Below are positions 3 to 38,386 of a stretch of 38,386 nt of DNA, in pieces; the first letter of the stretch is position 1, and the number at the start of each line of letters is the position of its first letter. Origin of the DNA: a virus. The stretch spans positions 1 to 38,386 of IMG/VR virus record IMGVR_UViG_3300027897_000004. One strand, 5' to 3'. The position numbers were made by a program, and so were the translations under genes. The notes under the pieces were generated by a model, which was given only the letters and a program-made list of their open reading frames with translations, had not been told where the DNA came from and did no database searches.

Positions 3-359
3 GCGCTGCTGGATGCGGACAACTGGCGTTGTCCCCACAGCTGTGGCGCCAGGTGTCAGCCCCTGGCCAAAGGGGAATGGCGTTGGGATGGTCGGACAGG
101 TGGCTGGCAGCACTACCATGGGAAGAAACACTGGTGGATCACCGCAAGGAGGATCGACATGAGCCGCACGGAGCCGGTTGAGGTGATGGGAGTGTTGAAG
201 GCTGCCACGGGTAAGGCAATGCTGCTGGACACCGGTGATGGGGAGCATTGGATCCCCCGGTCCCAGGCCACCATCGTCAGCGGAGACGACAACAAGGTGG
301 GTGACGAGCTGGTAATCGAAATCCCGGAGTGGCTGGCCATTGAGAAGGGCCTGGACTGA
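3..359 (+). CDS. Partial zinc-ribbon-like protein running in frame into the next small gene
   Basis: The frame starting at base 3 is open from the window edge and runs without a stop through the ATG at 159 to the TGA at 357-359. The part before 159 encodes a Cys-rich stretch (CPHSCGARC) followed by a Trp/His-rich segment (GEWRWDG, WQHYHGKKHWW), which suggests a small metal-binding ribbon. It cannot be told whether this is an upstream gene that lost its stop, a true two-domain protein, or one frame giving a long and a short product. The 5' end lies outside the window. No function is recognised. Confidence 0.4.
   Translation, partial: ALLDADNWRCPHSCGARCQPLAKGEWRWDGRTGGWQHYHGKKHWWITARRIDMSRTEPVEVMGVLKAATGKAMLLDTGDGEHWIPRSQATIVSGDDNKVGDELVIEIPEWLAIEKGLD
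159..359 (+). CDS. Small conserved phage protein preceding DNA polymerase
   Basis: A 66-residue product. The ATG at 159 is chosen because AAGGAGG lies 6 bases upstream, one of the strongest ribosome binding sites in the window, although the frame is also open further upstream. The sequence reads like a small beta-barrel: an alternating hydrophobic core (GVLKAATGKAMLLDTGDGEHWIPRSQ) and an acidic C-terminal motif (EIPEWLAIEKGL). From memory, proteins with this WIPRSQ...EIPEWLA pattern are frequent beside replication genes in phages, with no assigned function. Its stop overlaps the polymerase start (TGATG), so the two are probably translationally coupled. A nucleic-acid-binding role is only a guess. 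Confidence 0.65.
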   Translation: MSRTEPVEVMGVLKAATGKAMLLDTGDGEHWIPRSQATIVSGDDNKVGDELVIEIPEWLAIEKGLD

Positions 360-2287
360 TGCAGTTGCCGCTGTTTCCATTGGAAAGCAGTTGGGTGCCG
401 GTCCAACCTGGGGATCTCCCCAGTTGGAGTGGGGTCCAGCGTATTGGTCTCGATATTGAAACCCGTGACCCCCAGCTGCTGAAACTGGGTCCAGGAGTCC
501 GCCGGGGAGGGTACATAGTCGGGGTCTCCTTCGCAATTGAGGACGGCCCCGCGTACTACCTACCCATCCGCCATGGCGGAGGGGACAACCTAGATGCCAG
601 TCAGGTCATGAAATATCTTCATGACCAGGCTGGCGAGTACACCGGCACTATCGTTGGCACCAACCTCAACTATGACCTGGACTATCTGGCTGAGGTGGGG
701 GTAACCTTCCCCCGTATTGCTGGTCAACGTGATGTCCAGCTAGCTGACCCCCTGATCAACGAGCTTCACGATCATTACAATCTGGATGCCATCAGCAAGC
801 GGTGGGGGTTTGAGGGTAAGAATCTGGACCTGCTGAACAAGGCAGTTTCTGATTACGGCCTGAACAAGAAAAAGCCCCGATCAGAGCTTTGGAAACTACC
901 GGCCCGGTATGTAGCTGAGTACGGCATAGACGATGCTGTGCTCCCGCTGAAGGTGCTGCGTCGGCAGGAGCGGGTGATTGACGACGAGGATCTTTGGCAG
1001 GTGTACAATCTGGAAAGTCAGGTCCAGCCGGTACTGCTGAAACTGACTCGCCGGGGCCTGCGCATTGACCAGGACGCCCTGGACCGCATTGAGGCCTGGG
1101 CACTTGCGGAAGAACAGGCCCAGCTCACGGAGATTGAGCGGCTGACCGGACGTAAACTAGGCATTGGGGATATCAACAAAAAGGAAGTCCTGGTCCCATT
1201 GCTCAAGCAGATTGGTATGACCCTCTCATACACACCCACCGGGCAACCGCAAATCGACAAAGAGGCCTTGACCTTTGACCACCCAGTTGCGGACTTTGTT
1301 AACCGGGCACGTAAGGTCAACAAGCTACGCACTACGTTTGTGGCCAGCATACGCAACCACATGACCAACGGTCGCATCCACTGCACCTACAACCAGGTGC
1401 GCCACAACCGTGAGGGGGGAGAGGCGGTGGGTGCCCGGTATGGTCGCCTCAGCTGCGAAAACCCCAACATGCAACAACAGCCCGCCCGGGATGATTTTGC
1501 TGATATGTGGCGAGCCATCTACGTGCCGGATGAGGGTAAGTTGTGGATGTCTGCTGACTACAGCCAGCAGGAACCGCGCATTCTCACCCACTTTGCTGAA
1601 AAGTTGGAATTGCCCGGGGCATACAACATGGCTGAGCAGTACCGCCGCAACCCCAAAACCGACAACCATACCTGGCTGACCCGGCTCATACATCCTGAAA
1701 CGGCCACCTGGGATGAGAAAAGCCCTGAATTCAAAGCCAAGCGGTTTCCTTGCAAGCAAACCTTCCTGGGCATTTGCTACGGTATGGGTGGGGCCAAACT
1801 GGCCCGCGACTTGGGCTTGCCCACGGAGTGGAAGGTCATGCCCAGCGGCAAGCGAGTAGAGATTGCAGGTAGGGAAGCCCAGCAACTAGCGAACCTGTTT
1901 GATCAACATGCTCCATACGTGAGGCTCCTAGCCGCACGTATGGAGGAGAGTGCCCGCCAGTGGGGGTACATTCTCACCCTATCCGGCAGACGTTGTCGCT
2001 TTCCCACCAAACCCGGCACCAGCGAATATGACTGGTGTCATAAAGCCCTCAACCGTCTGATCCAAGGCTCCGCCGGGGACCAGACCAAGATGGCTATGGT
2101 GGCGGCAGATCAGGTTGGGTTCAACATCCAGCTTCAGGTCCATGACGAGCTTGACGGCAGCGTGGAGTCAAAGGAACAAGCGATGGAGTTGGCCCGGGTG
2201 ATGCAGGAATGCTGTCCCCTAAGCATCCCCAGCCGCGTGGATGTGGACCTTGGGCCCAGCTGGGGCGAAGCGAAGGAAGTGGCGTGA
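359..2287 (+). CDS. DNA polymerase, family A, with 3'-5' exonuclease domain
   Basis: A 642-residue replicative polymerase. The N-terminal DnaQ-like proofreading domain shows Exo I (LDIET, D32/E34), Exo II (NLNYDLDYL, D106) and Exo III (YGIDD, Y188/D192). The polymerase domain shows RYGRLSCENPNMQQQPA, motif A (ADYSQQEPR, D400), motif B (R462-x3-K466-x7-YG, Y474) and motif C (VHDELDG, H595-D596-E597). All metal-binding acids are present, so both activities should work. Tyr at 474 is the usual residue affecting nucleotide discrimination in family A enzymes. There is no 5' nuclease domain, as in T7- and T5-type phage polymerases. The start ATG overlaps the TGA of the preceding small gene. It presumably acts with the primase-helicase at 4462-6750. 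Confidence 0.97.
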   Translation: MQLPLFPLESSWVPVQPGDLPSWSGVQRIGLDIETRDPQLLKLGPGVRRGGYIVGVSFAIEDGPAYYLPIRHGGGDNLDASQVMKYLHDQAGEYTGTIVGTNLNYDLDYLAEVGVTFPRIAGQRDVQLADPLINELHDHYNLDAISKRWGFEGKNLDLLNKAVSDYGLNKKKPRSELWKLPARYVAEYGIDDAVLPLKVLRRQERVIDDEDLWQVYNLESQVQPVLLKLTRRGLRIDQDALDRIEAWALAEEQAQLTEIERLTGRKLGIGDINKKEVLVPLLKQIGMTLSYTPTGQPQIDKEALTFDHPVADFVNRARKVNKLRTTFVASIRNHMTNGRIHCTYNQVRHNREGGEAVGARYGRLSCENPNMQQQPARDDFADMWRAIYVPDEGKLWMSADYSQQEPRILTHFAEKLELPGAYNMAEQYRRNPKTDNHTWLTRLIHPETATWDEKSPEFKAKRFPCKQTFLGICYGMGGAKLARDLGLPTEWKVMPSGKRVEIAGREAQQLANLFDQHAPYVRLLAARMEESARQWGYILTLSGRRCRFPTKPGTSEYDWCHKALNRLIQGSAGDQTKMAMVAADQVGFNIQLQVHDELDGSVESKEQAMELARVMQECCPLSIPSRVDVDLGPSWGEAKEVA

Positions 2288-3141: not shown

Positions 3142-3784
3142 ATGAATATCTGCCCTAAATGCCTGGTTACTATGCACCCCTTGTTTGGGCATCCGGGTAT
3201 CGTGGTATGCTCAAATCCCCATTGCTACGTCAAACCCCTGGCTTGCGAAAAGTGTGGTATCCTGTTCTCAACCGGTCCCCCGTCGGAGGCTCAGTGCAAC
3301 TGCTTGGATAAGCCCACCTGGCCCACGCGGTTCATCGGCCTTGCCGACCACATTGCGCAGTGGTCCAAGGACGAATCGACCAAGGTGGGGGTGCGTGCTG
3401 GTGGAGCCCAGTACCAATACGGTGATTGGGCTGGGGTTCAATGGCTTCCCCCGTGGGGTCCAGGAAACAGATGACCTGCGCTGGACCAGACCTACCAAAT
3501 ACCTGTTCAGTGAGCACGCAGAACGCAATGCTATCTACAACGCAGCCCGGCAGGGGCACCCCACCCAGGGCGCACATGCTTACCTCAACTTCAACCCGAT
3601 GACCAGCATCTGTAGTGATTGCGCCAGAGCTTTCATCCAGGCGGGTATCACAGCAGTATTCGGGCCCAGCAACACAGCCCAGGGACGCACCGATATCCAG
3701 GGCGAGGGGGGCTGGCGTGAGCATTGCCATACCGGACGGATCATGTTAACCGAAGCCGGAGTGGAAGTTAAGGTGATCGAATGA
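3142..3784 (+). CDS. dCMP deaminase with N-terminal zinc ribbon, reading frame broken (+1)
   Basis: Two overlapping frames together encode one deaminase. Frame one (3142-3474) gives a Cys-rich ribbon (CPKC...C...CEKC...CNC) and then the deaminase start, WPTRFIGLADHIAQWSKDESTKVG. Frame two then gives VLVEPSTNTVIGLGFNGFPRG, the zinc ligand/proton shuttle HAE at 3515-3523 and the C-x2-C pair at 3611-3622, ending at 3784. The junction is a run of five G at 3387-3391; four G would restore a single frame. Deoxycytidylate deaminases turn dCMP into dUMP to feed dTTP synthesis. The usual Pro before the Cys pair is replaced (TSICSDC). The break could be real inactivation, a +1 recoding site or a homopolymer error. 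The fused ribbon is unusual for the family. Confidence 0.85.
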
Positions 3785-4281
3785 GCGAGCAAACCATGCG
3801 GGGCGTAGTGGTCCGTGCCCTACGCAAACTCAACGCTATCGCGGTGGAAAATCCAGCCTTGCCCGGCACACCCGATGTCAACTATGTAGAGGGCTGGATT
3901 GAGCTGAAGAAGCTAACTGCCTGGCCAGTGCAACCGGAAACTGTGGTTCGTATCGACATCTTCACGCCACAGCAACGGGTTTGGCACATTCGCCGCCGCC
4001 TTGCTGGGGGAGCGTCATGGTTCCTACTCCAGTGCGCAAACGAATGGCTACTGCTGGACGGAGCAGTGGCAGCCCTGAACGTGGGCCTGTGTACCCGGGA
4101 ACAATTGGCCGCCCTAGCCACCTGCCATATCCTGGGCACACCAAAGGAGCTAGAGAGATGGATCTCACAGCCGCAGAACGATTTTACCTTTGGCGACGCA
4201 GAACGGGCAAAACTCAAACTGATGCAGCGGAGCACTTCCGTGTCCCGCTTAGTCGATACCTTAGATGGGAGCACGGAGTAA
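3781..4281 (+). CDS. PD-(D/E)XK-type nuclease (VRR-NUC/resolvase-like)
   Basis: A 166-residue product starting at an ATG overlapping the deaminase stop (ATGA). The core LPGTPDVNYVEGWIELKKL has the spacing of a PD-(D/E)XK active site: the Asp of GTPD, then E-x-K in IELKK. A following QQRVWHIRRRLAGGASWFLLQ matches the helix and strand after the site in small phage nucleases of the VRR-NUC/Holliday-junction resolvase-like group. It probably cuts or resolves branched DNA during replication or before packaging; this is inferred from family and position. The last 124 bases overlap the next gene in another frame, so the C-terminal tail (after about residue 125) is probably poorly conserved. Confidence 0.75.
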   Translation: MSEQTMRGVVVRALRKLNAIAVENPALPGTPDVNYVEGWIELKKLTAWPVQPETVVRIDIFTPQQRVWHIRRRLAGGASWFLLQCANEWLLLDGAVAALNVGLCTREQLAALATCHILGTPKELERWISQPQNDFTFGDAERAKLKLMQRSTSVSRLVDTLDGSTE

Positions 4282-4469
4282 CCCGGCCCCGCTTTGTGCC
4301 CAAAGTCTCGGTAGTCAAACCTCATGAGCAATGTGTGCTGATGCGGCGTAAAGTTATGCTCACCCAATTGGATGTAGCCCAGGCCCTGGGCCGCTCCAAA
4401 GAGTGGATACGAATGATGGAGCAGGGGAAAGCCCCTTGCCGTGAACTTCAGGAGTATTGGGGTGAATAG
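4158..4469 (+). CDS. Small protein with two XRE-like helix-turn-helix segments
   Basis: A 103-residue product from ATG 4158. AAAGGAG lies about 9 bases upstream, while the frame upstream of this ATG only shadows the nuclease. Residues 1-38 (LTAAERFYLWRRRTGKTQTDAAEHF...SRYLRWEHG) look like one Cro/XRE-type HTH. Residues about 58-95 (VLMRRKVMLTQLDVAQALGRSKEWIRMMEQGKAP) look like a second. Both keep the R-x3-G/M-x-TQ-x2-A/V-A turn. A DNA-binding regulator or origin/loader factor for the adjacent primase-helicase is plausible. It overlaps the nuclease by 124 bases and the helicase gene start by 8. Confidence 0.7.
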   Translation: MDLTAAERFYLWRRRTGKTQTDAAEHFRVPLSRYLRWEHGVTRPRFVPKVSVVKPHEQCVLMRRKVMLTQLDVAQALGRSKEWIRMMEQGKAPCRELQEYWGE

Positions 4470-6750
4470 TTTACAATTTCTACAGCAGTTTCACCCTACA
4501 GGATTTTGGGTGCTGACTGCTATCAAGGTGGACCGCAAAGGCATTGAAACCATAACCTTCACCCCAGAGGAAACAGATCAAGCAGAGGCTTGGATCAACA
4601 AGCGCAATGGCAAACAGAACCTCTATTTCAGCGTCAACCAACCCAACCGCAAATTAGACAAAAAAGCCAGCAGCCAAGAAATCACGCAAGTGGGCTGGCT
4701 CCATGTTGACATTGATGCCCGGGCGGGGGAGCCTTTGGATGCTGAGCTTCTCAGAATCCAAGACCTACTTGAAAATAAGTGCCCGGTACAGCCCCCCACC
4801 GTTGTGGTTTACAGCGGAGGGGGATATCAGGCCTTTTGGAAGCTGTCCCAACCGGCCACGGAAAATCTGGGCCAGTTGGTCCAGTACAACAAGCAGCTTG
4901 AACTACTGTTGGGTGGAGATAACTGCCACAACATTGACCGCATTATGCGGTTGCCGGGCACCCTGAATATCCCCGATGCCAAAAAGATTGCCAAGGGCCG
5001 CATCCCCACAGAAGCAAAGGTGTTGTGGTTTGAGTCAGAACGTCAATATGAACTGACCATATTTACGCCCGCCCCAGAAGTCCAAACCCCCGGGGTCCGG
5101 TCTGATACACCTCAGCCCACCGCTAACGTGGCTCGCTTGGTCACGGTGGACGATCTTGACAAGTGGGGTGTACCTGACCGGGTGAAGGTCATTATCGTCC
5201 AGGGACACCACCCCGATGAGCCCAAGGAGGGCGACAACAGCCGCTCAGCCTGGGTGTTTGACGTAGCCTGCCAGTTGGTGCGCTGTGAGGTTCCCGACGA
5301 TGTGATTTTTAGTGTGATGACTGACCCTGACTTCGGAATCAGCCGCCATACCCTTGAACAAAAGGGTGATATTGGTCAGTACACCATGAGGCAGATTCAG
5401 CGGGCAAAAGAGGAAGTTGAAGAACCGTGGCTCCGGGTACTTAATGAGAAGTTCATGGTGATAGGAAACATGGGGGGCCGTTGTCGCGTTTGCGAGGAGG
5501 CATTCGATACAGCGCAAAACCGTAACTTCCTCACCCGTCAGACCTTTCAGGACTTCCGCAACCGGTTTTGCAATCAAAATGTCACGCAAGGCAAAAAACA
5601 AGTGCCTCTGGGCTTATGGTGGATCAACCATCCTCGCCGCAGAACCTTTGAGTATCTCACATTCAGCCCCGGTGAGTCCACCCCAGGGGTGTACAACCTT
5701 TGGCAAGGTTATGGCTGTAAGGCCGTAGTTGGAGAAAAGCATAACAGTTTTTTGCGTCACATGTATGAAAATATTTGCGGTGGAGACCACGGCCATTTTG
5801 AATATTTGGTGCGCTGGATGGCTCGTTGCGTCCAGCAACCGGCCAAGTCCGGGGAAACCGCCATTGTACTGCGGGGAGCCTCTGGAGTAGGGAAGAGCTT
5901 TTTTGCAAAGTGCTTTGGAGCTTTGTGGGGACGGCATTTCCTCCAAGTTAGCGATGCCAAGCATTTAGTGGGATCGTTCAATGCCCATTTGCGGGACTGC
6001 GTGGTATTATTTGGGGATGAGGCGTTCTTTGCTGGGGATCGTAGACATGAGTCCGTGCTGAAGACTCTGATCACTGAAGAGCGTATGATGATAGAACACA
6101 AAGGAGTAGATGCTGAGGTCACACCCAACTTCATTCATCTAATTTTAGCCTCCAACTCACAATGGGTAGTGCCCACCGGGCCGACGGAAAGACGCTTTTT
6201 TGTACTTGACGTCAGCGACCACCACCAGCAGGATGGCCGGTATTTTCAGGTCATACGAAATGACCTGGAGTCCGGGGGCTATGAAAATATGTTGGATTAC
6301 CTTTTGCGCCTAGACTTGACGGGATTTGATGTGCGTGACGTTCCCCAAACCAAGGCTTTGCGTGAGCAAAAGATCCACAGCATGGATCCTATGAGTGAGT
6401 GGTGGTTGGAACGTCTGAGTAACGGTACTTTACTGGCTACCCAGGACAGTTGGGAATGCGAAGTCATCTGCACGGACCTAGTGAATGACTACATTGACAG
6501 TTGCATACGCTTTAATGTTCAGCGCCGGGGCAGTAGTGTGAAACTGGGCCTGTTCCTGGACAGTGTGTGCCCTGGGGACTACCCCATTCGGCATAGAGCG
6601 ATGCGCAAAAAGTCCCGCCACTATATGTACACCTTCCCTAGTCTGGAGCAGTGTCGCCGTAAATGGGATAGAATTTGCGGAGGCACTTCCACCTGGTCCG
6701 TAGAACCCATCCAAGAAGAATTGCCGTTATGCGAAGATACTCAGTCCTAG
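4462..6750 (+). CDS. Primase-polymerase / SF3 helicase replication protein
   Basis: A 762-residue product. GTG 4462 is preferred over GTG 4441 because AGGAG lies 8 bases before it. The N-terminal part is an archaeo-eukaryotic primase-type domain: VDIDAR (D83, D85), the SGGGYQAFWKL loop and NIDRIMRLPGTLN. The C-terminal part is a D5/DUF5906-like superfamily 3 helicase: Walker A GASGVGKS (K478), Walker B VVLFGDEAF (D519/E520), sensor ILASN, and an arginine-bearing TERRFFVLDVS segment. Such fusions make primers and unwind the fork. Together with the family A polymerase this gives a compact phage replisome; no separate DnaB-type helicase or DnaG-type primase is seen. Confidence 0.92.
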   Translation: MNSLQFLQQFHPTGFWVLTAIKVDRKGIETITFTPEETDQAEAWINKRNGKQNLYFSVNQPNRKLDKKASSQEITQVGWLHVDIDARAGEPLDAELLRIQDLLENKCPVQPPTVVVYSGGGYQAFWKLSQPATENLGQLVQYNKQLELLLGGDNCHNIDRIMRLPGTLNIPDAKKIAKGRIPTEAKVLWFESERQYELTIFTPAPEVQTPGVRSDTPQPTANVARLVTVDDLDKWGVPDRVKVIIVQGHHPDEPKEGDNSRSAWVFDVACQLVRCEVPDDVIFSVMTDPDFGISRHTLEQKGDIGQYTMRQIQRAKEEVEEPWLRVLNEKFMVIGNMGGRCRVCEEAFDTAQNRNFLTRQTFQDFRNRFCNQNVTQGKKQVPLGLWWINHPRRRTFEYLTFSPGESTPGVYNLWQGYGCKAVVGEKHNSFLRHMYENICGGDHGHFEYLVRWMARCVQQPAKSGETAIVLRGASGVGKSFFAKCFGALWGRHFLQVSDAKHLVGSFNAHLRDCVVLFGDEAFFAGDRRHESVLKTLITEERMMIEHKGVDAEVTPNFIHLILASNSQWVVPTGPTERRFFVLDVSDHHQQDGRYFQVIRNDLESGGYENMLDYLLRLDLTGFDVRDVPQTKALREQKIHSMDPMSEWWLERLSNGTLLATQDSWECEVICTDLVNDYIDSCIRFNVQRRGSSVKLGLFLDSVCPGDYPIRHRAMRKKSRHYMYTFPSLEQCRRKWDRICGGTSTWSVEPIQEELPLCEDTQS

Positions 6751-7892: not shown

Positions 7893-8663
7893 ATGCTCGC
7901 AGTCCTACTGGCCACCATTTTTCTGACCGGTGATGCTCACCTCAGCACCACCAATTCAGCCTCTGACACGGTGCTGACCCACATTGCCAACCACATCGGC
8001 ACGGAAGCGGTGATGGACTGCGGTGACGTGTCCGAACACGCCACTGAGGCCGAGTACATGCGGTTCTGGACCCTGTTCCCTGCCGGCAACTTCATTCCAG
8101 GTGAGCACGACTGGTTGGACGGATGTAGTCATTGCGCAGATCCCATCAACATAGAAATTGACAACATACACATGGTGGGCTTCGACACCAGGTTCTACAA
8201 TGACCCGGGTAAACTGGTGGACCTGGATGCAGCACTAGCCTCCGGCCAGCCTGCCCTTCCTGTACTGTTTACCCACGTCCCTTTGCTCAGTGGCAACACC
8301 AGAACGGGAGGGGACTCGCCCGCCGTTTGGGCAGCGTTGGAGCCGTTGGTCGAAGCTAACAACGTGAAGCTGGTGGTGTCGGGTCATGGTCATGCCTATG
8401 AACGTCACTATCGCAACGGGCGTAATTATGTGGTCATTGGTACTGCTGGAGCAGAACTGGACCAAGTAGGAGCTGCCCCCTACTTGGTCAAATTCATCAC
8501 TCAGCACGGATGGTTGGAGATTGAATCTGACTATCCGGAACTGATCGTCACGTTCAAGGGTGTGGATGGAGGGGTGTTGGATCAGTTCCGCACCAGCAGT
8601 ATAACAGGTATCTCTGAGGCCCCCCAGTCAACCTGGGGCCAAGTCAAAAGCCTGTACCGATGA
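7893..8663 (+). CDS. Metallophosphoesterase (purple-acid-phosphatase-like)
   Basis: A 256-residue product. ATG 7893 has AGGAGG 7 bases upstream. Calcineurin-type metal-site motifs occur in order: GDAH (D14, H16), DCGDVSEH (D45), GEHDW (E71-H72-D73), LFTHVPLL (H128) and SGHGHAYER (H165, H167), followed by YVVIGTAGA. The GHxHAYER...YVVxGTxG tail is that of purple-acid-phosphatase-like enzymes. The usual GNH(D/E) is GEHD here, so the metal/phosphate-contacting Asn is Glu, which might change or abolish activity. The first 12 residues are hydrophobic but run straight into motif 1, so they are a core strand, not a signal peptide. The substrate is unknown. Confidence 0.88.
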   Translation: MLAVLLATIFLTGDAHLSTTNSASDTVLTHIANHIGTEAVMDCGDVSEHATEAEYMRFWTLFPAGNFIPGEHDWLDGCSHCADPINIEIDNIHMVGFDTRFYNDPGKLVDLDAALASGQPALPVLFTHVPLLSGNTRTGGDSPAVWAALEPLVEANNVKLVVSGHGHAYERHYRNGRNYVVIGTAGAELDQVGAAPYLVKFITQHGWLEIESDYPELIVTFKGVDGGVLDQFRTSSITGISEAPQSTWGQVKSLYR

Positions 8664-9717: not shown

Positions 9718-10062
9718 TTACAGGGAATGACCTTTGATCTGAATTGTGTTCTGGGTCGGCTGCTTAATGGACTGGTGCAGCGCCGTGCTCATACCTGCCA
9801 TCAGCGCACCAGTCTGGAGCGCAGGAAGGATCGCGCCAGACCAATCGCCAGTGGTGCGGACGTTCTGGGCATAGCTGAGGGCGCTGCTGATCCCCAGGTT
9901 GAGGTACGGAATGGCCTTATTGCTGATCGGTGTCCCGTGTTTGATGATGAGCCCGGCAATGACATATGCAACTGTACCGGGTTTGGCCACCACAATGACG
10001 ACCGGGGCCAGCACCTTGACCGCTGAGTACAGGCCCTTGCCCAATTTCTTGAAGAAGCTCAT
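9718..10062 (-). CDS. Small membrane-associated protein, possible holin
   Basis: A 114-residue product with a basic N-terminus (MSFFKKLGKG). Two hydrophobic stretches follow (AVKVLAPVVIVVA; GTVAYVIAGLIIK), and a third moderately hydrophobic stretch lies near residues 77-92 (AILPALQTGALMAGM). It sits between the tail tip gene and the lysis genes, which fits a holin but also a small virion protein. No diagnostic motif is visible, so this gene and its downstream neighbour are competing holin candidates. Confidence 0.55.
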   Translation of the reverse strand: MSFFKKLGKGLYSAVKVLAPVVIVVAKPGTVAYVIAGLIIKHGTPISNKAIPYLNLGISSALSYAQNVRTTGDWSGAILPALQTGALMAGMSTALHQSIKQPTQNTIQIKGHSL

Positions 10063-10071
10063 GACCCTCCC

Positions 10072-12942
10072 TTAATGAAGCAGTACCCCATAGCCAACCT
10101 CTGTAGGCCCGGCAATATCAAAGAACTGATCTGCCGCCGGAACGACGCTGAATCGGAGCTGGACCACATCGTTGGCCGTCAGCGACAGGTTGCCGGTAGT
10201 GGCAGCTGCCCCAATCAACGTAGTCCAGCCACCGGAGTTGACGTTGCTCTCCACAATGCCAGACGAGGGCAACGCATAGTGGATGTCAAAGGCATATGTG
10301 CCTGTTTCCCCGAAAGTCACCCCAGTGCTGCCCGCAGCTGCAAACGCACCAAAGATCAAATCGGCCCCTTGCAGGGCTGAGGTCAACGTAAAGTCATGCA
10401 GCATCTTCACGGGATTGGTGTACTCCACCGCGTCCACGGTATGCCTGGCGGTGACCTGGAGTTGGGCCGTGGCCGGGATCTGAACACCTGCGCCCAACGC
10501 CTTGATCACGCTGTTGCGCGTGAGGTAGGCTTCAGGATGGGCAATGGCCGCAGGGAAACCTGCCAACACCATCACATGGGTGACCACGTCTGTAGTTTCT
10601 CCATCCACCAGCAATACAAAATCAAATTCAGGACCATCATCTAGGTACTCACTGCTTAGGTACATGTCCACGTGAACATTATCGATGTGCCAATCGCGCG
10701 GGGTGGCCTGGGCGTAGATTCCCCTGTTGTTGTCCCCCGAGCCGTGGCCTGCGTGGCTGGTGTCCAGTGACGCAGTGGTCGGGGCGTATGTGGTTTCCTC
10801 AAATACCGGATCACGCGGAGCCAAGGGCACCTTGGCAATGTTCTGGATTGTGGTCTCAGTTGTGGGTGGGAGCGACACCAAGTAGACACCCAATCGGTTT
10901 TTACTGTAAAGTTTGGTATCTACCTCGTCATCCCCTACCGGCAATGTGAATCCGGACAGATTACCCCCTGATTGGCCCAAAAGCCAAATCCGCGTGCCGG
11001 CGGCATGGGCCTTGGGAGCTGTATGGAACAGTCCACGATACACATTGACAAGAGAAACGTGCGCGGTGGACCACCTAAGCTCCTCATACCCTATGAACTC
11101 ACCGTCAATGTACGCAATGGTGCCAAATTCCTCAACTTCAGTGGGACCGCCGCGCAGATCCAAACCACTTAAATCATCGGGATCGTTGTGAGTGACAAAA
11201 ATGGAGGTGGTTGCTGGCCGGACAGCTGTGGCGTAATACGCGGGTAAGTCGTCCTCAAGTGATCCCGCTAAGACAAAAGCGGTAATCTGCTGCTCGTCTT
11301 CGGTAAAGTCTCCGGTCAGGGGGCGACTGGAGCCGGTGCGATAGTAGGGGGCCAACAATGTAGTACCGCCCCCGGGGTTACGCGCACCCTGCCAAATTCT
11401 GACCGGCAAGGTGTTTCGCCAGGTGTCCTGAGCCACAAGTTGACGCGGAGCTTCAAATATCAAGATATTTTCAGCAGTCAGCACACCAGGGGTGCCCGTG
11501 GGATCTGTCCAACCGGAAGTCGGAGGATCCCCAAAAGAACCGGCAGTTACTGAGAATACATCCTCCACACAGCTAATACGGATTTGCCCCTGTCCCAATT
11601 GCCCGTAGTCTACCCGGGTCACCCGCATGATCATGTTCTCAACGCCCAGGCGCTCATGAGTAAACTTGAAGGCACTACCGGGAATAAGTTGATACATTGT
11701 CCGATTGACCACTATCTCTGCTTTGGCCAATGGGTAGCTGAGTGTGCGCAGGTCTCTCCACGCTAGGCGATTGGCTAGAGGGGCATCCTTAACCCCGGGG
11801 TAAACCACCTCAGCACTGACGGCTCCACCCTGAATGGTATAGTTGGCCATGTCCTGAGCCATGGCGTAGGCTTCACGAAAGTTGTCTGACCGCATCTGGA
11901 ATTTGAGATTAACCTGGTTGGTGGTTTCTTCCCAAGTGGCCCGGGAGTAGTGGGTCAGCTCAACAATATTGGAACTATCCACCAGCTGCAAATCAGCCTC
12001 ATCGTAGTCAAACCTATCCAGCACCACTTTCCATTGACCTAGAAATTTATCGAAGTAGAATAGACCATCAATTTGCCGCTCAATCTCCTTCAGCAGTTCA
12101 ACCGCTTCCATTTCTCTATCCAGCACCAAGGAAAACCCGTTACCCTCATCGTGCAACGTGACAGCAGCTTCCTGGAAGTTCACCGTGTCCACCAATGAGG
12201 TGGAGATGTGAAGCCCCCAGTCAGAATCAGTCAGAATCTCGTAAGCCACGTTCATGGGATTGGCGTCATACAGGTTTACCCGTTCCGCCCCCGGGTGATA
12301 GGCAGCCAAACCTAGGCCATCAGGAATGCGCTCCACAATGAAGGAGATAGGGGGAATCGAGGTTGAAGTGCCTACATAGCCTCCTTCAAACACGTACTGG
12401 CATGTTCCGCGGAAGGCAGGAATATTCGCTCCCAGCTGAGATTGCAGATACACATTTTGGGCGTCCGTGGCCGCACCACTGTAGAAGTACCCCGCGCCCT
12501 CGATACCGCCTTGCCCCAAGTCTTCTCCACCGAAGGCCTCCGGAGCCACTATATTAAACACCCCAGTACCTACCCGGCCCAGGGTAACCAACCGATCGTT
12601 GAGCTTGATGCCAATCAGCTCATCTACAACTCCCCGGCACAGGGCAAAATGCATACCCACATAATATTTGTAACCGACCACTACCCTCTGGGAGCTGAAA
12701 ATACCTGTCTTTTGACTTTGCCTACGGGCTTGCTGAATAAAACCGCCAAACCACACCACGTTGGGACCCTTGATTTCAACCCGGCCCCAAATCAGCGGCA
12801 CAACCCGACCCTCAGTGGCCGTGGGGAAGTTGAAGTCACCTAGACCCGCCGGTCGGGCATTCTCCAGCTTGGGCTTGGGTCGGATGATCTCAATCATCAC
12901 AAAAATGGCAACCCACAAATACCATGCCAGATGAAGAACCAT
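10072..12942 (-). CDS. Large tail tip / host-contact protein (J-like)
   Basis: A 956-residue product, last of the tail genes. The N-terminus has a hydrophobic segment (LAWYLWVAIFVMIEII) followed by RPKPKLENARPAGLGDFNFPTATEGRVVPLIWGRV, a block I recognise from large tail tip proteins of lambdoid-like siphoviruses lacking a classical J name. The middle contains hub-like regions and the C-terminal third is beta-rich (EFDFVLLVDGETTDVV; STGVTFGETGTYAFDI), fitting host-surface contact. Its start overlaps the DUF2163-like gene stop. In this order (DUF2163-like, then tip protein) it is probably the central tip fibre and receptor-binding candidate. The N-terminal hydrophobic segment is odd for a virion protein but seems typical of this group. 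Confidence 0.8.
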   Translation of the reverse strand: MVLHLAWYLWVAIFVMIEIIRPKPKLENARPAGLGDFNFPTATEGRVVPLIWGRVEIKGPNVVWFGGFIQQARRQSQKTGIFSSQRVVVGYKYYVGMHFALCRGVVDELIGIKLNDRLVTLGRVGTGVFNIVAPEAFGGEDLGQGGIEGAGYFYSGAATDAQNVYLQSQLGANIPAFRGTCQYVFEGGYVGTSTSIPPISFIVERIPDGLGLAAYHPGAERVNLYDANPMNVAYEILTDSDWGLHISTSLVDTVNFQEAAVTLHDEGNGFSLVLDREMEAVELLKEIERQIDGLFYFDKFLGQWKVVLDRFDYDEADLQLVDSSNIVELTHYSRATWEETTNQVNLKFQMRSDNFREAYAMAQDMANYTIQGGAVSAEVVYPGVKDAPLANRLAWRDLRTLSYPLAKAEIVVNRTMYQLIPGSAFKFTHERLGVENMIMRVTRVDYGQLGQGQIRISCVEDVFSVTAGSFGDPPTSGWTDPTGTPGVLTAENILIFEAPRQLVAQDTWRNTLPVRIWQGARNPGGGTTLLAPYYRTGSSRPLTGDFTEDEQQITAFVLAGSLEDDLPAYYATAVRPATTSIFVTHNDPDDLSGLDLRGGPTEVEEFGTIAYIDGEFIGYEELRWSTAHVSLVNVYRGLFHTAPKAHAAGTRIWLLGQSGGNLSGFTLPVGDDEVDTKLYSKNRLGVYLVSLPPTTETTIQNIAKVPLAPRDPVFEETTYAPTTASLDTSHAGHGSGDNNRGIYAQATPRDWHIDNVHVDMYLSSEYLDDGPEFDFVLLVDGETTDVVTHVMVLAGFPAAIAHPEAYLTRNSVIKALGAGVQIPATAQLQVTARHTVDAVEYTNPVKMLHDFTLTSALQGADLIFGAFAAAGSTGVTFGETGTYAFDIHYALPSSGIVESNVNSGGWTTLIGAAATTGNLSLTANDVVQLRFSVVPAADQFFDIAGPTEVGYGVLLH

Positions 12943-33203: not shown

Positions 33204-33263
33204 CTACTTCTTGCCGCCCTTTTTGCCGCCCTTCTTACCACCTTTGCCGCCTTTGCAAGCCAT
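33204..33263 (-). CDS. Tiny Lys/Gly-repeat peptide (19 residues)
   Basis: The ATG at 33263 overlaps the MuF-like gene stop (ATGA) and has GGGAGG 6 bases upstream, a very strong site for so small a frame. The peptide is MACKGG followed by repeats of K-G-G/K-K-G-G, ending in KK and a TAG. With about nine Lys in 19 residues it should bind nucleic acid or acidic partners. From memory, similar MACKGGK-type peptides occur in phage head clusters with unknown function. It lies 38 bases before the scaffold gene. Confidence 0.6.
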   Translation of the reverse strand: MACKGGKGGKKGGKKGGKK

Positions 33264-34396
33264 CACACACCTCCCAATTGTTTGAGGGTAAGCTCCTTTC
33301 CATCATAGGTCACAAACTGGTCCAGCTTCATTCCACCACGGAACAACGCAGCCCGTTTGGTTCCCAACAACTCATCCTGAAAGGCCCGAGACTGCGTGCG
33401 CAACCACTCATCATAATTGGTCACCCCAGGCACACGACCAATGTTCAGTTCTGACCACTCACGCTTCAGTTCCTGGATGGGACGGCCCGTGGCCCGGGCC
33501 TGTTTACGAAAGTCCAGCTCACGACGCTTGGCAGTGCGGGTGTCACGAACAAAAGCGCGGTCAGGTAGTTCAGCAGCTATACCCAGCACACTGAGGATGG
33601 CTATCATGCGGCTGCGGCACTTTACGTGAGCGGGAGGGCGTGCTTGGGGTGGCACCAGGCGCGGGGGCGGTACAGTTTGTCCGGGAATGACGGGGGCCAA
33701 TTTGCCGTCCCGGGCACGGCAAATTGGCGTCGTCCGCCCATCCAACATCGCCATCCAACGCAAGGCCTCTATTATGTCCGCGTTGGCCTGGAAAAAGGCA
33801 TCGTGGGCTAGGCTGGCAGCGAAGTTCGCCGCTGTCCGTACAACAGCCTCCGCGTTTCTACGGGTCAACGGAAGCACCAGCTGGACCCGGGCGGCCATTT
33901 CCGGAATGCCCTCACCCAGTATCAAGCCGGACTGGATTGCCTCCTGGACACGCTGCGCGTCCACGGCCTCAAGCCTAGCCCACCAGGCCTGAAGGGTGCG
34001 CGCAGCATTGGCCCCACCAAACGGTGTTGTAGTCAGCAGCGACTGCAAGGTTTCTGCACTCACCACAGCAAAACTGATTTCGACTGGTATGGCCAGGGTG
34101 AAGGCACTATTAGCCCAGGAGTGCTCCAGTTGGGTCAACTGGGTCATCTCCGTCAGGTTGGTGCCCCGGGCCACTTTCCAAAGTTCGGCGCGCAAAGCGC
34201 GAATGTCCTTCAGCAGGGCCTTGTACCGCTGTGAGGTGAAGTCTCCGGGGGTAAGCCTGGCCAGTAGGAGCGCCATCAGTTCTTTGTCGGCTTGGTCCAG
34301 GAGCGCCACCACACGCCGGGCTTCGCCCGACGTGTAGCGGGCCACACTTATGGCTCGCCGGACCTGTGCATCAAAGAATTGCTGGTTGGCGGTCAT
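33263..34396 (-). CDS. MuF-like minor head protein
   Basis: A 377-residue product. The helical N-terminal half is followed by the hallmark of Mu gpF/SPP1 gp7-like proteins: RWMAMLDGRTTPICRARDGK, then PPAHVKCRSRMIAI (Cys/His pairs of the probable metal site). A C-terminal extension (RELDFRKQARATGRPIQELKREWSELNIGRVPGVTNYDEWL) is common in siphovirus versions. MuF proteins sit on the portal side of the head and may be ejected with the DNA. It directly follows the portal with an ATGA overlap. Confidence 0.85.
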   Translation of the reverse strand: MTANQQFFDAQVRRAISVARYTSGEARRVVALLDQADKELMALLLARLTPGDFTSQRYKALLKDIRALRAELWKVARGTNLTEMTQLTQLEHSWANSAFTLAIPVEISFAVVSAETLQSLLTTTPFGGANAARTLQAWWARLEAVDAQRVQEAIQSGLILGEGIPEMAARVQLVLPLTRRNAEAVVRTAANFAASLAHDAFFQANADIIEALRWMAMLDGRTTPICRARDGKLAPVIPGQTVPPPRLVPPQARPPAHVKCRSRMIAILSVLGIAAELPDRAFVRDTRTAKRRELDFRKQARATGRPIQELKREWSELNIGRVPGVTNYDEWLRTQSRAFQDELLGTKRAALFRGGMKLDQFVTYDGKELTLKQLGGV

Positions 34397-35835
34397 TCTT
34401 CCTCAGGCTCCGGTTCTGGCTTCACCTCAGGGGGTGTTGGCGTCAGGGTGCCAATCATCTCCAGGGACTCTTCCTCAAGCAGTTTAGCATCGGCTTCCTG
34501 ATTGAAGTCATCCGGCAGCAGTCCGCGCCGCTGGATCTCCTTGAGGTAGGTGACGCGGCTGATGTCCCGGTCCTTGCGGGTGGCCTGAAGCGTGGTCAGT
34601 TCTGCCGGGCTGGAGTCCTCCGGCCCAAAGTCCGTGCGCAACTGCGCTGTACCGCCCGACGGCAACGCCATCCACTGCGCCGTGAGGGCCAAGGCCTGGT
34701 TCATGGCCGTGGCAAACCGCATCGCCATGTCCTGAAGCGGGGACGTGGCCTCAGAAGAATCCAGCGTGCGCGCCGTGGCCGTGGTAGCACTGGGCCGCTT
34801 TTTCAAAAACTCGGCCCCATACTCAGACATGCGGGCTTCCTTATCCAGCAAGTCCTTACGCCCGGCCTCAATAGCGTTGCCACTGTGCTCCACATAGTAG
34901 AACTTGGCCGCCGGGTCCGGGCTATACAGCCACCGGTTGGGTCCGATTTTCAGCGCACCCTCGGTATCACTGCCACCGCTCAGGGCAAGAATCGGGAATC
35001 GGGCCACCGTGAGACAGGCCTGCTGGTCACTGTACCCCTGCCAATGGGACAGATTCAGGTCGGCCAAGTCCTCCAACGGCGGAGTGCCCTGCATGAACGC
35101 TTCACGGTCGCTATAGAACGTGACCAAGGGGATGGTGGGCAAACTGAAGGTGTAACTGTCCACCAACACCCAGGCTTCCTTCTTACTGTTACGGATACGC
35201 TGCAACTGGTACAGCTCCACCCGTTGTCCATCCAGGGTTACCCGCCTAATCTGCTGTACGCACTTCTCCGCAAACCCTTCCCGCACTACCAGGTTCTCCA
35301 TGACTCTGACCTCAGTCAGCACTTCCTGGCCCCGGTCCATCTCGCTACTGGCAAAAAACAGCTGCTCCGGACGCCAATGGACCCAATAGGGCCGAATACG
35401 CTCTTCCCGGTCAGTAGCCAGTGTACGCTCCGGAGTGAGGTCTGTACGAGGGAAATCCACATATACGTGGCTGAAAGCCTTGGCCACCCCATCACCAAAC
35501 CAATTTCGGGCAAACATTTGGAGGTCAGAGCCCAGCATGTCCACATCCGTCAGCAGTTCCTGGATCTGCGGGGGGACATCCACCAGCTTGATGGGGATGC
35601 TGAAGGGTCGACCCACCCAGCTCTGGAGAGTGAGCTTGGTCATGTTGATCAGCACTGATTTTGCTAGCCGTTCCCCATACGCCTCATTGGATTCGTACTT
35701 GTGCTGGGGGAGGTAGAGAGATCCGGCCTTGCGTAGCGCATCCGTGCCATCCAACACCGTCTGGATCTTGGCCCAGCTGGGCAACATGTGGTCGTAGGCC
35801 ATGCTGGTGGTGGCGGGGCTGTTTTCCTTCACCAT
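34393..35835 (-). CDS. Portal protein (DUF4055-type)
   Basis: A 480-residue product. The opening (SWAKIQTVLDGTDALRKAGSLYLPQHKYESNEAYGERLAKSVLINMTKLTLQSWVGRPF) is diagnostic of the DUF4055 portal-like family, followed by a VSHVYVDFP-like segment, a helical stem and a Pro/Glu-rich C-terminus (TPTPPEVKPEPEPEEE). Portals form the 12-subunit ring for DNA entry. Start ATG 35835 overlaps the large-terminase stop and has GAGG about 8 bases upstream. Length and position agree with the family. Confidence 0.88.
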   Translation of the reverse strand: MVKENSPATTSMAYDHMLPSWAKIQTVLDGTDALRKAGSLYLPQHKYESNEAYGERLAKSVLINMTKLTLQSWVGRPFSIPIKLVDVPPQIQELLTDVDMLGSDLQMFARNWFGDGVAKAFSHVYVDFPRTDLTPERTLATDREERIRPYWVHWRPEQLFFASSEMDRGQEVLTEVRVMENLVVREGFAEKCVQQIRRVTLDGQRVELYQLQRIRNSKKEAWVLVDSYTFSLPTIPLVTFYSDREAFMQGTPPLEDLADLNLSHWQGYSDQQACLTVARFPILALSGGSDTEGALKIGPNRWLYSPDPAAKFYYVEHSGNAIEAGRKDLLDKEARMSEYGAEFLKKRPSATTATARTLDSSEATSPLQDMAMRFATAMNQALALTAQWMALPSGGTAQLRTDFGPEDSSPAELTTLQATRKDRDISRVTYLKEIQRRGLLPDDFNQEADAKLLEEESLEMIGTLTPTPPEVKPEPEPEEE

Positions 35836-37334
35836 GTGCCCGACCTCACAATCCTGCGCTTGCGGCGCAACCGGTATCGTACCTCATCGCCAATGTGATC
35901 CTCAGCTTCTGAATCTACGTCATCCAGGTCTCGATCGCTGCGGGGCAGCACTGGAACGGTGCGTTGAAACTGCACGCAACTCTCCAGCACGAACAGTCCT
36001 GGGTACTCCCTTGCTGGGTTCTTGGCCTGCTCCAGATACGCCCTCAGCTGCTCCCAACCCTGCTTGCGTGAGCCTGAAGACTTATCTGCGCGGTCCCAGC
36101 GGATACCTTCCTTCTTCATATCCCCGGCAGTGCTGCTGCCGGGCTCATAGTCATCAAAAATGCTTGTGTCCGCTGGGCCTACATTTACCTTAATACCCCA
36201 ATTCTGTTCCCGTTCCCGGATGCCCCGGGCAATTTTATCCCCCCGCCACTTCAACCCTACGTTGGGCTGATGACCATCCCAGCCGTACCATTCCGCAATG
36301 CGAATGGTGTCTCCGCGCACTGGGCCGTAGACCCGGGGCTGATTGTTATGGAGGATCGTGAGAGGCTCACCATTGGACTCCGCCCACCATCCAACACTGA
36401 ACGGTTTGGACTGACCGTGGTCATACGACCGATCTACATACCACCCCTTGGGGATACGAGTCAAGGGAAAGTTTGGAAGCACGTGAATCTTGGGGTCCCA
36501 CACATCATCCAGCATGCCACCGGCAACAATGTTCCAGTCCCCATGCAGCCAGGCCTTCAGTTCCTGCGGGTTACGAGCGGCAGCCCGCAAATTGGCAATG
36601 TAATTGGGCTGGGCATGGAGTAGAATCTTGTTTTCGCGTAGTTCTCCGTGAATCACCACCCGTTCCGGCTCCGGGTGACCTTCCTGATCCACAGCGTCCC
36701 GAATCACTGGGCCCATTACGCGCCCCATGGCAATCGGCAGCCGCCACCGGGCCTTGACCCAGTTATGCCCAACACCATACGGGTTGCAAGTCGCGCGAAC
36801 CAGCAGTGGGATGCCCACCGCCGTGGAGCGGCTACAGCTGAACATGGACTTGTAGCAGTCCGGGCTGTGCCAGTTGGTCAGCTCTTCCCATGCAATGAAC
36901 GGATACTCATGGCCATGGTAATTCCAGTAATCTTCCGGGCGGGCAAACTGCCGGAAGAAGAGCATTTCCCCATCCGGCCACTCCCAAAAGTGCTCGGCTC
37001 GGTTGTACTTGGCCTGGGGCCAGATGCGAGGGAACCACTTCTGTGACTTCGCGATGATGTCTTGCAGCTCGGGGTAGGTCCGCCGGAACAGAATGCCACG
37101 CCACGCCTGGCCCCAGCCCTTCCCTACGTGCTGACCAAAGGCCATGAGCAGCGCATCAGACTTGCCCGGCCCGCGCTGGCCCTCATACAGTGCTTCCTGT
37201 ATGGGACACGTCAGAAACGCCACCTGACTGCCCGGTTGGGGGGCCCATGCTACCTCAACCTCCGTGCCCCCTCGGTGCAGTATTGGGACGATACCCTCAG
37301 TGGTAGTTCGCCACTCTAACCGCTCGGTCTGCAT
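35829..37334 (-). CDS. Terminase large subunit
   Basis: A 501-residue product from ATG 37334 (a GTG one codon earlier is possible). Walker A is EGQRGPGKSD, near residues 51-59. Walker B is YPFIAWEELTNW, with the catalytic EE pair. The coupling motif reads LLVRATCNPYGVGHNWVK. The nuclease half has the RNase-H-type acids WYVDRSYDHGQSKP and, near the end, DDVDSEAEDHIGDEVRY. This motor cuts and packages concatemeric DNA. The GPGKS and ATCNPYG spelling is shared with many siphovirus terminases. It overlaps the preceding gene by 38 bases and the portal by 7. Confidence 0.94.
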   Translation of the reverse strand: MQTERLEWRTTTEGIVPILHRGGTEVEVAWAPQPGSQVAFLTCPIQEALYEGQRGPGKSDALLMAFGQHVGKGWGQAWRGILFRRTYPELQDIIAKSQKWFPRIWPQAKYNRAEHFWEWPDGEMLFFRQFARPEDYWNYHGHEYPFIAWEELTNWHSPDCYKSMFSCSRSTAVGIPLLVRATCNPYGVGHNWVKARWRLPIAMGRVMGPVIRDAVDQEGHPEPERVVIHGELRENKILLHAQPNYIANLRAAARNPQELKAWLHGDWNIVAGGMLDDVWDPKIHVLPNFPLTRIPKGWYVDRSYDHGQSKPFSVGWWAESNGEPLTILHNNQPRVYGPVRGDTIRIAEWYGWDGHQPNVGLKWRGDKIARGIREREQNWGIKVNVGPADTSIFDDYEPGSSTAGDMKKEGIRWDRADKSSGSRKQGWEQLRAYLEQAKNPAREYPGLFVLESCVQFQRTVPVLPRSDRDLDDVDSEAEDHIGDEVRYRLRRKRRIVRSGTW

Positions 37335-37611
37335 CACGGGGTAGCTCGTCTCCGGGTTTGGGCTTGGGCAGGTCAGCGATGATTTCCCTGTAAGCTTCCC
37401 TGGCGATCCGGTCGCACTCGGAGGGGTCTAGGGTGTCGTGGTACCGTTCGCACAACTCCTCGGCCAACGCTCCCGCCAACACACCCACGGTCTGCTCTGT
37501 CGCTTTGTACTGCTCCAGAAAGCCCAGGCGGGCGACGGGCCGGAGGGTACAGCGCACGCGCACTTCCCAGTAGAGGGAGTTGTTAGGGCGCTGGAACAGG
37601 GAGAGCTGCAC
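37297..37611 (-). CDS. Small hypothetical protein between the terminase genes
   Basis: The frame is open from 37680, but the start is unclear. GTG 37611 (giving a 104-residue QLSLFQRPNNSLYWEVRVR... start) keeps the overlap with the small terminase to 29 bases and is my preference; no good ribosome binding site supports any choice. The middle is a helix-rich region (FLEQYKATEQTVGVLAGALAEELCERYHDTLDPSECDRIAREAYREIIADL) and the end is charged. Its end overlaps the large terminase start by 38 bases. The family is not recognised. Genes between terminase subunits may assist packaging. Confidence 0.6.
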   Translation of the reverse strand: MQLSLFQRPNNSLYWEVRVRCTLRPVARLGFLEQYKATEQTVGVLAGALAEELCERYHDTLDPSECDRIAREAYREIIADLPKPKPGDELPRDADRAVRVANYH

Positions 37612-38083
37612 TGTTGGTTTCGATGTCAAAGTCTGTTGCCTCCCACTGTTTGGCGGAGGGGGCCATGCCGGGAACGACAATCACCCCACCCTTCACGTTC
37701 AGATCCACCTGCTGACGGTCCCGGTACTCGGGGATGTGACGCTTGGCGTGAAGCTCAAGCATGCGGTCACTGTAGCGACGGATGGTGCCGCACTGCTCAC
37801 CCTGATAGAAGACCGGCTCCAGTACGCCAGTGATGGCTCGGCGGTGAATCTCCGCCTCCACCTCATCGCAGTAGGTTTGGAGTGCCTGCTTGCAGGCCTC
37901 GTCAAATTCAGGGTCGTCCTTGCGCCAGTTGAGAATTGTAGTGGATGAGGTGCCTACGGCAACTGCTGATTTTTGAACAAGGCCGGTTTCCTGGTAGCAC
38001 GCGAGATACTCCGCCTTGATCTTTGGGCGCATTGCCTCAAGTGCTGCCTTGTTGTGGGGCAGGCGTGGTCGATTGTTGGCCAT
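37583..38083 (-). CDS. Terminase small subunit
   Basis: A 166-residue product from ATG 38083. Helix-turn-helix at about residues 34-56 (GLVQKSAVAVGTSSTTILNWRKDDPEF), then a helical oligomerisation segment (ACKQALQTYCDEVEAEIHRRAITGV) and a motif common in small terminases of this type (EPVFYQGEQCGTIRRYSDRMLELHAKRHIPEYRDRQQVDLNVKGGVIVVPG). It recognises the packaging site and loads the motor. It is the first gene of the late operon. No Shine-Dalgarno is present (the bases before the ATG are CTATCCTCCCCCAC), and a promoter -10 sits immediately upstream, suggesting a leaderless start. An ATG at 38032 is an alternative. Confidence 0.85.
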   Translation of the reverse strand: MANNRPRLPHNKAALEAMRPKIKAEYLACYQETGLVQKSAVAVGTSSTTILNWRKDDPEFDEACKQALQTYCDEVEAEIHRRAITGVLEPVFYQGEQCGTIRRYSDRMLELHAKRHIPEYRDRQQVDLNVKGGVIVVPGMAPSAKQWEATDFDIETNSAALPVPAP

Positions 38084-38090
38084 GTGGGGG

Positions 38091-38119
38091 AGGATAGGGG
38101 GTAAGCATATGAAAGTCAA
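38091..38119 (-). promoter_or_regulatory. Candidate late promoter, sigma-70-like
   Basis: On the - strand TTGACT (38119-38114) and TATCCT (38096-38091) are separated by exactly 17 bases. The predicted start, 7 bases after the -10, would fall on the A of the small-terminase ATG at 38083. -35 matches the consensus at five of six bases, -10 at four. No other gene stands between it and the late operon. Confidence 0.5.
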
Positions 38120-38230
38120 GGGCCAACAGTTTTCTACCTTCTCTGCTCTCTTCCGGAATTCTCTGCAAGTTTTCGACCTCAATCTGCCGTGCGGTCAGAA
38201 AGTCGATCACACCCCCATGAAGTAACGATA

Positions 38231-38386
38231 GGGCGTGATGGTACCCCCCTGGCCCTTATGGGGTGTAACTGGCCCTTTTGAGTAGCAATAGGGTAGCATC
38301 AGTAACCATTGGCCCCTATAGGGTAGCATCAGTAACCATTGGCCCCTATAGGGTAGCATCAGTAACCATTGGCCCCTATAGGGTAG
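38231..38386 (+). repeat. Tandem 30-bp repeat array with degenerate leading copies, cut by window edge
   Basis: Three perfect 30-bp units lie at 38291-38320, 38321-38350 and 38351-38380, with the first 6 bases of a fourth at 38381-38386. Each unit junction creates the palindrome CCCTATAGGG (first at 38314-38323). Degenerate copies sharing GGCCCTT and TAG-GG blocks lie at 38231-38290. There is no spacer between units. The array lies upstream of the late operon promoter and continues beyond the window. An iteron-type origin or multi-site regulator operator fits; the 30-base period also leaves one frame open on each strand. The stretch 38120-38230 shows no gene or clear motif. Confidence 0.85.

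Follow-up and report, generated by a model that had tools for sequence, protein, structure and literature searches.

A helically phased array of degenerate decamers upstream of the small terminase gene as a possible packaging-initiation site in a phage related to YuA and the Mesyanzhinovviridae

The right end of the window, by which we mean the whole stretch of DNA analysed here, a virus record of 38,386 bases with the record class linear, carries a repeat array whose basic unit is 10 bp, one turn of the DNA helix each, the perfect 30-mer found in it consisting of three such units. The array is probably bound by a protein, and we read it, at about even odds (a probability of roughly 0.5), as a TerS-recognised packaging-initiation (pac) array of a headful phage related to YuA and the Mesyanzhinovviridae, which possibly also represses the adjacent late promoter. 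The initial annotation had named a replication origin or a cooperative operator as the best candidate, and a GC-skew minimum near the array speaks for that proposal; it missed both the 10-bp unit and the packaging option, and a packaging signal fits the gene context better, because the packaging module is inverted relative to the replication genes between the window and a distant relative, yet the array keeps its place and orientation by terS. More broadly, the array directs attention to the DNA upstream of terS as a recognition site that evolves fast throughout a common phage group.

Rightward genes run from the left end of the window (DNA polymerase A, a helicase-like gene at 3781-4281 and a primase-helicase) and leftward genes from its right end (terS, terL, portal, Mu-F-like, major capsid and tail genes, down to 10072), the two sets converging near 10 kb; a metallophosphoesterase-like protein is encoded at 7893-8663, near the convergent gene junction. 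As the initial annotation stated, the array lies upstream of the late operon, which starts with terS at 38083 and runs leftward through terL and the head and tail genes. The closest phage records to the window TerL are mostly Mesyanzhinovviridae (YuA, PaMx11, Ab18 and others) at 57-59% identity, and a search of phage records found none near-identical to the window. The features on which the analysis turns are as follows.

38206..38386, minus strand: about 18 degenerate 10-bp units in a single helical phase, read toward terS and cut by the contig end (in-phase Viterbi path; profiles from the related contigs L002 or L124 fit at z 8-9)
38288..38386, minus strand: 3.3 perfect tandem copies (TRF) of a 30-bp higher-order unit made of the three decamers GCTACCCTAT, AGGGGCCAAT and GGTTACTGAT
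38206..38287, minus strand: degenerate decamers TGCTACTCAA, AAGGGCCAGT, TACACCCCAT, AAGGGCCAGG, GGGGTACCAT and CACGCCCTAT, with two more 11-mers (sequence reading; decamer profile)
38091..38119, minus strand: putative terS/late promoter, TTGACT-17-TATCCT (L002 has the counterpart TTGCCT-17-TATCCT at the same place)
37583..38083, minus strand: terS, small terminase, 166 aa (phrog_4044, 5e-44; AlphaFold predicts an N-terminal HTH, then a long helix and a beta hairpin)
35829..37337, minus strand: terL, large terminase (phrog_979)
359..2287, plus strand: DNA polymerase A (polA), replication module, considered as a link to an origin
4441..6750, plus strand: primase-helicase (RepB_primase and DUF5906), considered as an origin binder

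The initial annotation described a perfect 30-bp tandem array with palindromes, preceded by decayed copies and running out of the window. The perfect copies do continue to the contig end, and each contains the 10-bp palindrome CCCTATAGGG (exact positions 38314, 38344 and 38374), looser matches to which occur elsewhere in the window at chance level; the real unit is, however, 10 bp, and the repeats that precede the tandem are not decayed 30-mers but further in-phase decamers, the flank at about 38206-38287 keeping the 10-bp phase of the 30-mer with one 1-nt slip. Specifically, a period-10 profile derived from L002 only, applied to this flank plus one 30-mer copy, scores about 7 sd above dinucleotide shuffles, of which 0/1000 reach the score. 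The 25-nt core of the 30-mer occurs 3 times in the window, against 0 expected, and is otherwise absent. The perfect 30-mers appear to have arisen later, by local expansion of three decamers, and the degenerate decamer array is the older layer; the earlier statement that identical copies imply recent amplification thus holds for the former and not for the latter. The 3.3 copies are counted up to the contig end, where the contig stops inside identical repeats, and the true copy number may differ; only this number is in doubt, because two other contigs carry such decamer arrays without perfect tandems, which leads us to reject an assembly artefact as the source of the array. The array is likewise not a coding repeat, because its period of 10 is no multiple of 3. 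A T7-like promoter was considered for the shared CTATAGGG and set aside: only the TATAGGG core agrees by eye with the T7 promoter, no phage RNA polymerase gene was noticed, and the units are too variable. An Rfam search returned no RNA family, the exact 25-nt core had no match in viral contigs, a search with the three-decamer word pattern matched only L002 itself, a distant blastn search of the L002 array against phage and plasmid records gave no match, and an early-region protein search aimed at the far side of the array returned the same contig only. The early contig of the relative ends in coding DNA; the window ends inside identical repeats. A simple test of WW-step periodicity is marginal, and passive DNA curvature is therefore not established.

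Decamer arrays are known from three phages, two of which (the window and L002) are close relatives. In L002, the closest relative, with a TerL 89% identical to that of the window, about 600 nt of non-coding DNA before terS consist of about 58 decamers with different words. A cyclic EM profile on this DNA gains 178 nats over background at period 10, compared with 17 +- 5 in dinucleotide shuffles, and of the remaining periods between 6 and 15 a marked gain appears only at 13, where it is less than half of the period-10 value, and at 15, where it is about two thirds of it. The 20-, 40- and 50-bp repeats of L002 keep the 10-bp register, because 92% of the spacings between exact 8-mer repeats are multiples of ten. 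The third array, at about 2095-2440 of the locus and about 480 bp before terS, belongs to L124, a 55-kb contig whose TerL is 57% identical, and is the one further array of the decamer type among about 300 loci; its consensus CGTGCCCCAT, derived independently, compares with CACGCCGCAT in L002. Profiles trained on each of the three arrays fit the other two with z 7.8-17.8 on the terS-ward strand and worse on the opposite strand; column-permuted profiles match as well 0-2 times in 100, usually never, and the L002 profile on 40 random window segments, as a control, gives z 0.3 +- 1.1 with a maximum of 3.5. The three arrays cannot be aligned to one another, their words differing with phase and orientation kept, and an oriented degenerate 10-bp consensus, about V-V-B-R-N-C-S-C-A-T, is nonetheless conserved among them, because the cross-trained profiles fit on the terS-ward strand. 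As far as comparison of sequences reaches, these arrays show words that change quickly within a fixed phase and orientation. Further candidates for periodic arrays (L062/L063, L129, L147, L166 and L187) were rejected as low-complexity, coding or weak. Elsewhere in L002, at 9891-10363, a 147-bp unit is repeated 3.2 times, probably within a tail-protein gene.

In all three phages the repeats lie where a pac site is expected, which is at terS or a short way upstream of it, across or next to the terS promoter: in the window and L002 the array directly precedes that promoter, and in L124 it is located within the gap before terS. The packaging genes of the window are opposite in strand to polA and primase, whereas in L124 all are co-directional, and the place and orientation of the array relative to terS are the same in both despite this inversion, so that the array follows terS rather than the replication genes, which fits better with packaging. 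Moreover, of 129 distinct loci, 38 have a tandem repeat at -1600 to -500 from terL, and two control stretches inside coding DNA give 12 and 4. Repeats upstream of terS are thus common in the YuA/Mesyanzhinovviridae-related group, although the enrichment alone proves no function, because repeats are better tolerated outside coding DNA than within it. Unit length varies with lineage, being 9 bp in Yuavirus, 7 and 11 bp in Polynucleobacter genomes, 13 bp in L192 and 28 bp in L144. In the Polynucleobacter genomes with related terminases (L206-L219), 7-bp arrays of the CACCAGA/CACCAAA type and an 11-bp repeat of the ATGCGAACGCA type stand about 1.0-1.2 kb before terL, and L144/L022 carry, about 1.3 kb before terL and upstream of terS, a long run of CGGTATA-type 7-bp units in which 28-bp higher-order repeats occur.

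The nearest HTH protein to the array is TerS, and no counterpart of the tandem-HTH protein that the initial annotation had named as a possible binder was identified. The predicted structure of TerS has a pLDDT above 90 over most of the N-terminal HTH (AlphaFold), and the period-10 array together with this predicted HTH provides repeated elements suited to an oligomeric HTH TerS. A fold search gives weak matches to SPP1-like, Sf6 and PaP3 TerS (E 0.1-1), and a PDB sequence search with TerS gave no match. The terS ATG lies 7-8 nt after the putative -10 box in the window, similarly in L002, for which reason the terS mRNA may be leaderless. Between the window and L002, identity is 44% in the TerS HTH, about 80% in the TerS C-terminal domain, 89% in TerL, 89% in the portal and 92% in MCP, and the DNA upstream of terS cannot be aligned. 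The Mu-F-like head protein of the same two genomes (window 33263-34396, L002 4485-5615) is 99% identical, and this suggests a recent exchange of the gene, because its neighbours are 80-92% identical. Among relatives with unalignable upstream DNA the HTH lags behind the C-terminal domain in conservation (by -0.10 to -0.40), whereas with alignable upstream DNA it is mostly about equally or more conserved (-0.06 to +0.17), the pairs in both sets not being independent; in M6, AN14 and CN1, whose upstream DNA is alignable, the identity of the HTH approaches or exceeds that of the C-terminal domain, and the exception among alignable pairs is Epa5 vs PaMx11/Ab18 (HTH minus C-terminal = -0.28). The DNA-binding domain of TerS thus appears to diverge where the upstream DNA diverges, a co-divergence that linkage alone could produce. 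With L086, which is a contig from the same sample, the window shares 96% identity in polA. Across phages, identity to the window is 48-57% for polA and 47-56% for primase, about equal with and without decamers: M6 and CN1, which have none, stand at 54-57% and 49%, and L124, which has them, at 52% and 52%. These comparisons favour TerS over the replication proteins as the probable reader of the array, because the HTH appears to track the upstream DNA while polA and primase identity does not follow array type, with the caveat that the L124 TerS recognition helix is no closer to that of the window than are those of phages without decamers.

In the proposed mechanism, rings of TerS with HTH domains around the rim would bind many adjacent decamers, each of which would present the same helix face to the ring; the nucleoprotein complex would recruit TerL, which would cut nearby and start packaging of the concatemer. 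Because the array adjoins the late promoter, the complex may also damp terS/terL expression, as reported for SPP1, and the 30-bp tandem would represent a recent local expansion of three decamers. The pac of SPP1/SF6 carries direct repeats across the terS promoter and gene start, which differ between SPP1 and SF6, and a ring of HTH domains is modelled to select bent DNA and wrap it (PMC4737164); repression by SPP1 TerS of its own synthesis is reported in work cited in PMC6316719. A phased array by the terS promoter would be the expected target of a TerS of the SPP1 type, because it offers one degenerate site per DNA turn. The window array resembles the SPP1/SF6 pac in its repeats upstream of terS, differing between close relatives, and in an HTH-type TerS; the SPP1 pac, unlike it, is made of three small sets of boxes, while the type described here has tens of units in strict 10-bp phase. 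Yuavirus (M6, YuA, AN14) and Bordetella CN1 share with the window related TerL/TerS, polA, primase-helicase and repeats in the same gap, but theirs are few copies of 9-bp words (TAAGTTAAG) and TATC runs with no 10-bp phase.

Counting for a pac function are the position by terS, the conserved oriented decamer, the array following terS, the co-divergence of HTH and upstream DNA, an array type independent of the replication proteins, the frequency of repeats upstream of terS across the group, the precedent of the SPP1/SF6 pac and the headful packaging described for the Mesyanzhinovviridae. Counting against it are linkage, the GC-skew minima near the array, the weak fold matches to known TerS, the marginal WW periodicity and the L124 recognition helix, since a shared sequence-specific TerS target would predict likeness to that of the window. 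Moreover, tight binding to pac DNA in vitro is a property of few TerS proteins, and in HK97 the DNA is threaded through the TerS channel, not wrapped (PMC9611059, PMC11331095), which also speaks against it; the wrapping model is disputed, wrapping versus threading being called a major debate (PMC11331095). The Mesyanzhinovviridae, a related family, are described as headful packagers with circularly permuted genomes (PMC11946847). A more specific version of the packaging reading, which we put forward tentatively and with considerable doubt, is a helical-phase packaging code, in which tens of degenerate oriented decamers, one per turn, would be wrapped by TerS rings in a nucleosome-like manner, the words drifting while phase and orientation hold. 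If true, it would provide natural sequence evidence for the disputed wrapping model in this phage family, and an array of this length, found in nature and offering one degenerate site per turn, allows wrapping and threading to be tested directly against each other.

A replication origin, the main rival reading, in which the decamers would be iterons for the primase-helicase or another initiator and the helix would melt beside the array, is rather unlikely, though several observations speak for it. The cumulative GC skew, a check that the initial annotation had proposed, has its minimum at the array end of the window, the early region of L086 continues the positive skew of this lineage, and in L124 the minimum at 17-20 kb lies beside the array at 19.2-19.5 kb; the skew is, however, confounded with transcription, following gene direction in the window and being weak, about 2 sd, in L124. 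Tandem direct repeats are present, as in iteron origins, phage origins such as SPP1 oriL/oriR typically contain arrays of short direct repeats (PMC6316719), and the primase-helicase has a plasmid-type RepB_primase domain. On the other hand, among relatives polA and primase identity bears no relation to the type of array, the array adjoins terS and not the replication genes, no initiator gene was recognised among the proteins scanned, and inspection by eye of the 120 nt that flank the array toward terS, its readable side, shows no evident AT-rich unwinding element, the array itself being GC-rich. Iteron origins of phages and plasmids share with the array short tandem direct repeats in non-coding DNA; the window unit differs from them in being degenerate and 10 bp long, in its rapidly changing words and in having no tie to a replication gene. 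If the array were an origin instead, it would constitute an unusual 10-bp iteron system.

That the array is a cooperative operator or enhancer of the late (terS) promoter, along whose helically phased sites a phage regulator would polymerise, is unlikely. Phased sites suit cooperative binding and the conserved -35/-10 pair lies about 90 bp from the array end, but about 480 bp separate array and terS in L124, the early region examined yielded no regulator gene, and the L002 array, at about 600 bp and 58 units, far exceeds any phage operator known to us. Even less probable is a non-functional satellite that slippage would have produced in a permissive intergenic gap and that would serve no selected function: the perfect 30-mers and the higher-order repeats of 20, 40 and 50 bp are evidence of active slippage or duplication and non-coding gaps tolerate repeats, yet a decamer profile in one orientation is common to phages 57% identical in TerL whose arrays cannot be aligned, and the repeat spacings of L002 keep to multiples of 10. 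That the array is a parC-like partition locus, or another structural locus to which a small ribbon-helix-helix protein binds, is very improbable, since, although ParR-type centromeres are likewise arrays of short, roughly 10-bp direct repeats, this array adjoins packaging genes, neither adjacent partition genes of the ParMRC/TubZRC kind nor members of the ParM, ParR and ParA families were found among the proteins scanned, the early region being incomplete, and nothing pointed to lysogeny or a plasmid state.

Two observations concern the records of relatives. The annotated repeat regions of Achromobacter phage Axy06 (MK962627.1, 1-2978 and 42853-45830) agree at 778/2978 positions ungapped and are not reverse complements; this is likely an annotation or record error, and these terminal repeats, not being identical, were dropped as evidence. 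In L086 (1805-9143) and L094 (201-1010), upstream of polA in the near relative, the early operon resembles a thymine hypermodification set, with an amino acid:DNA transferase (ADDT), a 5-hmdU DNA kinase, a thymidylate-synthase homologue, a PLP enzyme and a radical-SAM-like protein; the matching early part of the window's own genome lies outside the record. Two small proteins of the same contigs are assigned as "terminase small subunit" by PHROGs and weakly as AAA_33 by Pfam.
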